From Stappia sp. MMSF_3263 (GTDB lineage: Bacteria > Pseudomonadota > Alphaproteobacteria > Rhizobiales > Stappiaceae), in contig NZ_JASHIK010000013.1 in NCBI RefSeq assembly GCF_030733745.1, forward strand, positions 1 to 64,000: a stretch of DNA of 64,000 nucleotides. The letters are read 5' to 3'. Shown in pieces: positions 19,275 to 53,742 of this stretch (positions within the stretch are counted from its first letter, which is position 1; each line of letters opens with the position of its first letter). The notes beneath the pieces are model-generated. The model did no database searches. It was not told the origin of the DNA and was given only the letters and a program-made list of their open reading frames with translations. The position numbers and the translations under genes are program-made.

Positions 19275-19544
19275 CTAGGGGCAGGGCCCATTGAATTGGC
19301 GGACATGGTCGGAGCGAATTTGTGCGGATGCGAGAAGCAAGACCGCAGGAAGGCTGAAGCCTTTCAAGGTCTTGCGACGCTGACGCCCGTGCAAATTCGC
19401 CCGATCCGAAGGACGTCCGATCTGACGGCGATCAGCGGCGTCAAAGCTCTCGACCGGGGCGCCAACCCCGCTCTTCGAGCTTTTCCTGGCATCTCTTGTC
19501 ATATCGAACGCCATTTTCGTCAATTTAACGGGTCCTGACCCTAG
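19275..19544. repeat. 270-bp palindrome-ended repeat, copy A (MITE-like, structured)
   Basis: This fills nearly half of the 606-bp gap between the EamA gene and the CoxL-like gene. The ends are imperfect inverted repeats: left CTAGGGGCAGGGCCCATT, right (reverse complement) CTAGGGTCAGGACCCGTT, continuing for about 33 bp with about 25 matches. Inside are a nested hairpin (GCAAGACC 19337-19344 pairing with GGTCTTGC 19368-19375, and AAGGCT/AGCCTT inside it) and a CGGGG/CCCCG hairpin at 19455-19470. A second copy of identical length lies at 53201-53470. No convincing coding frame was seen in it; the rest of the intergenic region shows no gene. Confidence 0.8.
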
Positions 19545-53200: not shown

Positions 53201-53470
53201 TTAGGTCGTGAACTGATAATTCTGGCGAGAAACGGTCTGCGCGAACCTGTTCGGATACAAGGAGCAAGACCGCAGGAAACCATTCGGTTTTCAAGGTTTT
53301 GCGACGCCGTTGCCGGCAGGTTCGCACAGACCCGAAGGGCGTCGGTCCGGCTTCGATCTGCGGCGTCGGACCGCTCGGCCGGGGGACTTGCCCCGGCCAT
53401 CACGCTCCTCCTGGCATATCATTGCCGGGCCAGACGCCGTTTCCGGCACAATTATGAGTCCACGACCTAG
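53201..53470. repeat. 270-bp palindrome-ended repeat, copy B
   Basis: Same length as copy A. Ends: left TTAGGTCGTGAACTGATAAT and right (reverse complement) CTAGGTCGTGGACTCATAAT, 17 of 20 identical. The nested hairpin is kept: GCAAGACC (53264-53271) pairs with GGTTTTGC (53295-53302) through one G-U pair, and the inner stem is AAACC/GGTTT (53277-53290), with different bases but the same pairing as in copy A. A GGCCGGGG/CCCCGGCC hairpin lies at 53377-53398. It occupies the gap between a six-gene operon and the transglutaminase gene; its right-end CTAG supplies the stop codon of the operon's last gene. Confidence 0.8.
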
Positions 53471-53742
53471 CGGAAGTCGGAGGCGTTCAACGTGTAGGAG
53501 GACCGGCGGCGGCTTGTGTGGATCGTGCGCGCGACGTCGTGAATGGTGGCGCGCAGCCGGTCGAAGGCCGACAGGCAGTCGGCCTGGGAGGCATCGAGGC
53601 GGGCGGTGGCGCCGCCCGCTTTCGCAAGTGCGTCGGCTTCTATGAAGAAGGGGACCTCGAACACGCCGTCATGGCCGATGAAACGCACGCCTTTGCGACC
53701 TTCGTCGAAGCTCCGGCTGGGGTTGGGAAAGCTCAATGTCAT
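53467..53742 (-). CDS. DUF1488 protein, 91 aa
   Basis: Small soluble protein of the DUF1488 family: starts TLSFPNPSRSFDEGRKGVRF, then FEVPFFIEADAL, and ends SYTLNASDF, all family hallmarks. Function unknown. GGAGG ahead of the ATG; overlaps the preceding gene by four bases. Last of six tightly packed small genes. The stop TAG lies in the terminal CTAG of repeat copy B. Confidence 0.85.
   Translation of the reverse strand: MTLSFPNPSRSFDEGRKGVRFIGHDGVFEVPFFIEADALAKAGGATARLDASQADCLSAFDRLRATIHDVARTIHTSRRRSSYTLNASDFR

Follow-up and report, generated by a model that had tools for sequence, protein, structure and literature searches.

A widespread family of structured IS5-type MITEs with two inverted arms in Alphaproteobacteria

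Two copies of a folded repeat in Stappia sp. MMSF_3263

The first 64,000 nucleotides of contig NZ_JASHIK010000013.1 of Stappia sp. MMSF_3263 (forward strand; hereafter the window) carry two repeats of equal length that differ in many letters and keep an internal hairpin. To what kind of element do they belong, and does the fold serve the element, its host or nothing at all? As proposed in a preliminary description made from the sequence alone, two 270-bp copies are present, copy A at 19275–19544 and copy B at 53201–53470. Their ends read CTAG..CTAG in A and TTAG..CTAG in B, and their identity is moderate (72% over query positions 23–221). The inner stem is exchanged on both sides, from AAGGCT/AGCCTT in A to AAACC/GGTTT in B, while the outer stem is GCAAGACC/GGTCTTGC in A and GCAAGACC/GGTTTTGC in B, the latter with one G-U pair.

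Once the outer bases and a TA on each side are removed, a mobile unit of 264 bp remains in both copies, built as end, arm, short spacer hairpin, inverted arm and end, with arms of about 100 nt each. The unit of copy A (19278–19541, plus strand) is flanked by TA at 19276–19277 and 19542–19543, thus spanning 19276–19543 with both dinucleotides; the outer C and G complete a YTAR target, and the ends are common to the A-type copies of this genome. Its left terminal inverted repeat (19278–19306) pairs in the predicted fold with the right one (19513–19541), which was delimited by end comparison and the fold. The left arm (19307–19406), with its sense on the plus strand, contains the inner stems GCAAGACC/GGTCTTGC and GGAAGGC/GCCTTTC. 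It is followed by a mini-hairpin, CC-GAA-GG (19406–19412, plus strand), seen in the sequence and with similar CC-loop-GG counterparts in many copies, and by the right arm on the minus strand (19411–19512). The unit of copy B (53204–53467, plus strand; 53202–53469 with the TA at 53202–53203 and 53468–53469) has its left arm at 53234–53332 (plus) and its right arm at 53337–53438 (minus). Both right arms were placed by comparison of the inverted arms and have approximate boundaries. The predicted RNA folds are unusually stable (z = -8.9 for A and -11.3 for B), none of 200 dinucleotide shuffles being as stable in either case. A covariance model of the left arm, R1, detected in the whole window only A (102.2 bits, E 2.8e-25) and B (91.7 bits, E 2.1e-22); both copies are among the 33 sequences from which R1 was built.

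Copy A lies between divergent genes for an EamA transporter (minus) and a molybdopterin-binding oxidase (plus). Copy B lies between two minus-strand genes, immediately behind a DUF1488 gene (53467–53742, minus) whose TAG stop codon is supplied by the end of the element; a relative with an empty site has TGA at the same codon. The suggestion that the repeat sits in 5' regions of divergent or promoter-less genes is corrected accordingly. Scans around the two copies found neither a sigma-70-like promoter nor a terminator. Among 14 loci holding a relative of the gene next to copy A, the seven most similar (83–84%) come from six contigs of Stappia and from a MAG labelled Rhodobacteraceae.

Copy number and taxonomic range

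Two subfamilies with a combined total of at least ten copies occur in the source genome: six A-type copies that are full-length or nearly so at 86–100%, with one partial copy, and four such B-type copies at 82–100%, with one partial and one deleted. The preliminary description would have been refuted by a lack of further copies in related genomes; they turned out to be abundant. Plain DNA similarity detected the element in 16 of 61 genomes. R1, which does not include the terminal repeats, was derived from 57 sequences, reduced to 38 non-redundant ones and then to the 33 of alignment A3 (seven loci, L048, L049, L050, L055, L081, L091 and L095, were left out of the family alignment). At a cut-off of E 1e-4 per genome, for which about 0.04 false genomes are expected per search (the E-values are rough), R1 matched 76 of 397 genomes and 45 of 141 genera in the order of the source genome, and 15 of 385 genomes in a sample of the class. 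The latter include the source genome and hence leave 14 of 384 others. In a separate set of 14 named genomes, six carry the element: Stappia sp. WLB 29, S. indica SBBC 49, Stappia sp. TSB10P1A, a Stappia MAG and two other alphaproteobacterial MAGs. Copies per genome range from none found to 28 matches, the latter in one complete genome (G079). A plasmid search with copy B returned two Phyllobacterium records; a phage search with copy A gave no match, nor did a search of viral contigs with one exact hairpin pattern of 20 fixed bases.

Two other origins were considered. Copies differ by single-base indels, which rules out a protein-coding origin. Descent from a single-copy host RNA gene is unsupported, as inspected loci with one R1 match in the genome, such as L147, L160 and L226, bear terminal repeats; L218 is an inspected locus of this kind without them. 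Inner stems resembling AAGGACATGC..GCATATTC and, in part, AGAGCG... ends mark a further subfamily (L172, L171, L177 and L238) in genomes outside the order sample of the window.

Terminal repeats and target sites

The R1 searches yielded 87 loci (L134–L182 and L204–L241), of which 80 were read for ends; the window itself (L178), five repeats of other loci (L234, L235, L236, L240 and L241) and L233 were left out. Since R1 lacks the terminal repeats, their presence at these loci is an independent check. Strong terminal inverted repeats, with at least 20 of 26 terminal bases in Watson-Crick pairs, were found in 67/80 loci versus 2/149 control windows shifted along the same loci and scored likewise for Watson-Crick pairs only. 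The called length is 266–275 bp in 47/80 loci. The remainder include cases in which the search had slid inside the repeat, elements truncated at contig ends and, at about 163–203 bp, short versions that could accommodate a single arm (L168, L175, L204, L219 and L226). One of these (L168, in G631), of 177 bp and with AGAGCATAATCC ends, sits immediately upstream of a stretch that by eye resembles a tRNA gene. In another genome (G043), four of the nine copies read (L114, L115, L120 and L121) measure 282–283 bp owing to an insertion of about 12 bp in the spacer hairpin.

In 43 of 53 loci the left end reads YTAG and the right end CTAR, Y and R being independent of each other. Such ends fit a 264-bp element inserted at YTAR with duplication of TA. 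The four-base CTAG duplication that the preliminary description proposed to look for is ruled out by this independence and by a locus with TTAG and CTAG ends (L045); at most TA is duplicated. An empty site was found for copy B and not for copy A. The orthologous site of copy B in G005 (L243) lacks the element, reading CTCTATCAGCGGAAG as opposed to CTCCATTA[element]TAGCGGAAG, while in G002 (L244) the element is present there. As the empty site reads TCAG rather than TTAG, TA duplication is compatible with it but not proven. The orthologous region of copy A was compared in seven loci (L100–L106), which gave no match to the element; six match the downstream flank, none of them as a base-exact empty site. 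Beside the copy B orthologue of G002 (C1, approximately 1272.6–1273.6 kb), two more short palindromic insertions, CTAGTGTGGTG...CCACACTAG and CTAGTCACCC...GGGTGACTAG, occupy CTAG sites, so this place appears to be a repeated target.

Relation to IS5-family elements

Four classes of element ends were distinguished, CATAA, CATTAAT, TTGACA-like and AGAGCG, the first three of which also occur on IS5-family elements. The NCBIfam IS5 model NF033580 matched three transposase fragments of two loci (L125 and L130), one of them above the curated cut-off. Eleven of 20 IS loci measured gave an IS of 843–869 bp with TAGG at both ends, although one IS accounts for several of the 11; ten have an end that matches element ends of the same genome at 12–17 of 20 bases (TAGG included), and one at 8. 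One end of the L130 IS has 19 bases (GGCTCAGGACCTATTAATT) in common with 31 of 62 end hits of G043. On the other side of the balance, the source genome is without a match to the IS5 query at E 1e-8, and 6 of 16 element-bearing genomes, G043 included, gave none at 1e-10. In the complete genome G002, 25 forward and 29 reverse B-type end hits form 24 pairs at element spacing and none at 600–2500 bp; this genome does carry IS5 copies, but with other ends.

At 264 bp the element is too short to hold a transposase gene. IS5-family elements with related ends were seen in other genomes of the order, and no IS with identical ends was found beside the copies, so the mobiliser is inferred. The ends nevertheless support the view that the folded element is a MITE of the IS5-family type, judged by how these ends behave and with its actual mobiliser not found. 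We presume that the transposases concerned belong to the IS427 group, a name that we supply ourselves, as the analysis gave the IS5 family. Such DDE transposases would move the element in trans, acting on its TAGG...CCTA ends and duplicating TA within YTAR.

Other IS5-type arrangements were noted. In L199 (G002, 827 bp) and L361 (G115, 850 bp), IS5-type elements abut the end of a folded element exactly and have the TA in common with it, so element ends themselves seem to serve as YTAR targets. A 2083-bp stretch (L125:2439-4521) has TAGGGTCAGGACCC and a similar end, and contains an IS5 transposase in two overlapping frames as well as two other ORFs, possibly passenger genes.

Conserved fold of the two arms

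In alignment A3, 90.9% of cells pair in the drawn left-arm structure, versus 30–48% when the structure is slid by 1–3 columns; for 26 of 35 pairs, both partners are altered somewhere in the alignment. For the larger set, 109 arms were reduced to 88 non-redundant ones, and L168 and L181 were removed for the covariation and G.U tests, leaving 86. We used our own implementation of an R-scape-like test, not R-scape itself, with a null in which substitutions were re-simulated 100 times along a FastTree tree of the 86 arms and with columns less than 4 apart not tested. The covariation that the preliminary description had inferred from two copies is significant beyond this tree-based null: 22 column pairs covary at E 0.05, and 17 of them belong to the structure drawn beforehand. 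Of the other five, four amount to a register correction of an adjoining helix and one is non-canonical. After this correction 21 of 22 lie in the structure; yet the register of helix P2b was corrected after the covariation result had been seen, and 17/22 thus remains the unbiased count.

Unpaired positions are conserved as well. The inner stem is flanked by a non-canonical pair, A.G in 51, C.A in 30 and other in 7 of 88 arms, next to which stands G.A or A.A in 87/88, and the asymmetric inner loop has AA on one side in 81/88. The sense motifs can be summarized as AGGR-stem-GNN-stem...stem-AA-stem-RACG and are clearest in the left arm. That so elaborate a fold is kept while almost every letter changes suggests that the spread of the element depends on its folded shape.

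The second arm, which the preliminary description did not mention, is homologous to the first and inverted with respect to it. In 12/56 loci the opposite strand of the right arm gives an R1 match in register (E < 1e-3). The AGGN-stem-RACR motif occurs in 26/56 right arms on the minus strand and in 0/56 on the plus strand, while left arms have it on the plus strand in 54/88 and never on the minus. The right arm covaries in its own right, with eight significant pairs of which seven are in its structure (alignment without L205, L161 and L171; the remaining 53 reduced to 51).

What the fold may serve

Both halves of the earlier reading, a MITE or a dispersed structured RNA, are thus borne out, by IS5-like ends on one side and a covarying fold on the other. 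The ends, the copies, the fold of the arms as read from covariation and their inverted homology are shown by the analysis, and the identity of the family as real, widespread, structured MITEs of the IS5 type is well supported. Service of the fold to propagation is the best-supported mechanism, but remains unproven. We put at roughly 0.6 the probability that this is a non-autonomous IS5-type MITE family whose folded arms serve its own propagation, with transcript, mobiliser and partner all unproven. By inference, the arms would then probably bind a transposase or host factor that favours mobilisation or tolerance of the element, and they would work mainly as RNA, the left arm on the plus strand and the right arm on the minus strand.

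The preference for RNA comes from the mismatches. Folding of double-stranded DNA would make G.T and A.C mismatches equally frequent; G.T is the best-tolerated mismatch in DNA too. The inner left-arm helices tolerate G.U far more than A.C, which points to RNA: helix P3 has 46 G.U versus 5 A.C cells, a further pair reads G.U in 72/86 sequences, and the branch events leading from paired states number 58.5 to G.U versus 14.9 to A.C (binomial p 4e-7 under equal odds). The left-arm cell ratio of G.U to A.C is 3.3 for the true structure versus 0.8–1.7 for slid controls. As the controls reach such values, equal odds are not quite the baseline, and the event count of the whole left arm (86 G.U versus 50 A.C, ratio 1.7) is not convincing, so that the argument rests on the inner helices only; the outer helix has 75 G.U versus 50 A.C cells. 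On its own sense strand the right arm gives a cell ratio of 2.0 versus 0.8–1.2 when slid, and 43 G.U versus 28 A.C events (p 0.096). By this pattern of substitutions the inner left arm likely acts as RNA of the plus strand, for which no transcript data exist, and the right arm leans toward RNA of the minus strand, without significance.

The same evidence bears on a serious though unlikely alternative, that the arms function as single-stranded or cruciform DNA recognized by a transposase or host protein at replication or excision, comparable to REP/RAYT systems. Two tagged hairpins in inverted order would suit it, the more so as the CGTC/TGTC/CGTT tags on the reverse strand of the left arm resemble those of tagged REP dimers, as far as the accessible part of that description goes (PMC3733652). 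The absence of a detectable promoter around either copy and the non-significant right-arm excess of G.U events also speak for DNA. It is not easily reconciled with the G.U preference of the inner left-arm helices and their almost fixed G.U pair, and a double-stranded cruciform cannot tell the strands apart, although a one-stranded DNA hairpin could.

Rather doubtful, but worth stating, is a counterpart of SINE-type parasitism, in which two opposed structured RNAs of a non-coding element capture transposases of different IS5 lineages in trans, the terminal repeats being swapped as the IS5 elements of the hosts change and the fold persisting across the class. If it were true, it would suggest how CGTC-type hairpins, for which no transposase is known, moved between genomes.

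Where selection acts

A fold conserved across many genera might also be expected if each resident copy served the host as a small RNA or transcript-end module, which we consider improbable. Among the private changes of four genomes (with 14, 17, 9 and 24 copies), 63 pair breaks were counted versus 73.9 expected when the changes are re-dealt to like bases, that is, nearly as often as without constraint (one-sided p by genome 0.11, 0.04, 0.90 and 0.09). The test is small, its deficit is borderline, and L270, L271, L305, L312, L313 and all 11 copies of G327 were left out. Usefulness to the host also sits poorly with copy numbers that run from none found to 28 matches and with an orientation to flanking ORFs that has no clear preference (29, 24, 24 and 20 of 97; weak evidence from a crude ORF caller with open ends). 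Constraint is weak in resident copies and strong between lineages, as would be expected with a fold that matters for the propagating source rather than for each copy in the service of a host. For the IS5-type MITE with self-serving arms, this means that the fold seems to be maintained in propagating lineages more than in single resident copies, the small size of the test notwithstanding. The fold would be needed in the lineage that keeps jumping and resident copies would then be freed from most constraint, a pattern to be expected by analogy with other parasites that have a master lineage.

Mutation rather than selection could in principle produce paired changes. Stem correction by template switching is known for quasi-palindromes, and the element is strongly palindromic, so that one side of a stem copied onto the other would mimic compensatory change. 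This process should, however, erase mismatches, yet the AA inner loop, the A.G/C.A pair (also 81/88) and the nearly fixed G.U persist, and it predicts no bias of G.U over A.C, which makes it a very improbable explanation. That this is an ordinary MITE with an incidentally stable fold is hardly tenable, for although its terminal repeats and TA sites are those of any MITE, a free body would drift, whereas 47/80 loci keep to 266–275 bp and the covariation of 22 pairs exceeds the tree-based null.

Comparison with known elements

Rfam 15 has no match in the window, and three element loci searched up to E 10 gave four matches, all far below gathering scores. No description of the folded family was recognized from titles and abstracts, most subscription papers being outside our reach. 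With IS5-family MITEs (IS427-like, on our assumption) it shares a short non-coding body, IS5-like terminal repeats, YTAR sites with TA and sets of similar copies per species. It differs from them in a body that is not free to drift, with two inverted covarying arms over dozens of genera, and in end classes that vary while the body fold stays. MITEs are usually regarded as internal deletions in decay, with a functionless body; in the folded family, by contrast, the body structure is conserved in dozens of genera and with several types of end. This makes testable the idea of a small bacterial transposon that uses RNA or folded DNA to win a transposase it does not encode. It would also add a large family of structured elements without an Rfam match, likely to be encountered in small-RNA screens and intergenic regions of Alphaproteobacteria.

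REPINs are pairs of inverted REP hairpins mobilised by RAYT, with a GTAG tag at the stem. As far as the sources at hand go, they resemble the folded element in being an inverted hairpin pair that moves as a non-autonomous unit; it has no GTAG stem tag, but IS5-type ends and TA sites instead. MiniMdi3 of Methylobacterium is likewise an alphaproteobacterial MITE related to a named IS, but is about 400 bp long, and the available part of its description does not mention a conserved fold (PMC2680597). QMITE1 and QMITE2 of Coxiella burnetii are MITEs with stable predicted RNA folds, some of them transcribed as small RNAs; according to the accessible text, QMITE1 has no orthologues in other genomes, the QMITE direct repeats are 2–3 and 7–11 nt, and covariation is not mentioned ('covaria' is absent from that text) (PMC5896051). 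A 2024 review of bacterial MITEs treats stable stem-loop transcripts and has, in its available portion, nothing on conserved covarying bodies (PMC10969869).

The nearest published kind for the arms, judged from the accessible part of its description, is the CGTC-tagged REP (PMC3733652). Its hairpins often occur in inverted pairs, mostly in alphaproteobacteria, and no dedicated transposase was found for them. Of our left arms, 53/88 combine a stem of 8 bp with CGTC or TGTC as a one-sided tag. The published hairpins, as there described, span 20–40 bp, with a stem of 8–9 bp that starts with AT pairs, a loop of 4–5 nt and a 3-nt tail that is mostly CCA. The folded element, in contrast, has arms of about 100 nt with a nested second stem and conserved inner loops; its outer two pairs are GC/GC in 51/88 and AA/TT in 7, and the 4 nt before the stem are AGGA in 40 and AGGC in 26 of 88 (TCCT and GCCT on the other strand) where the tail would be CCA. 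Moreover, its tags face inwards, and IS5-type ends enclose the arm pair. Because size, stem start and tail differ, the folded element was not assigned to this kind. The tag variants named in the accessible part of that paper are CGTC, TGTC and CCTC, with CGTT not among them; beside the stem on the reverse strand of our 88 left arms, the tag is CGTC in 40, CGTT in 31, TGTC in 13 and another sequence in 4.
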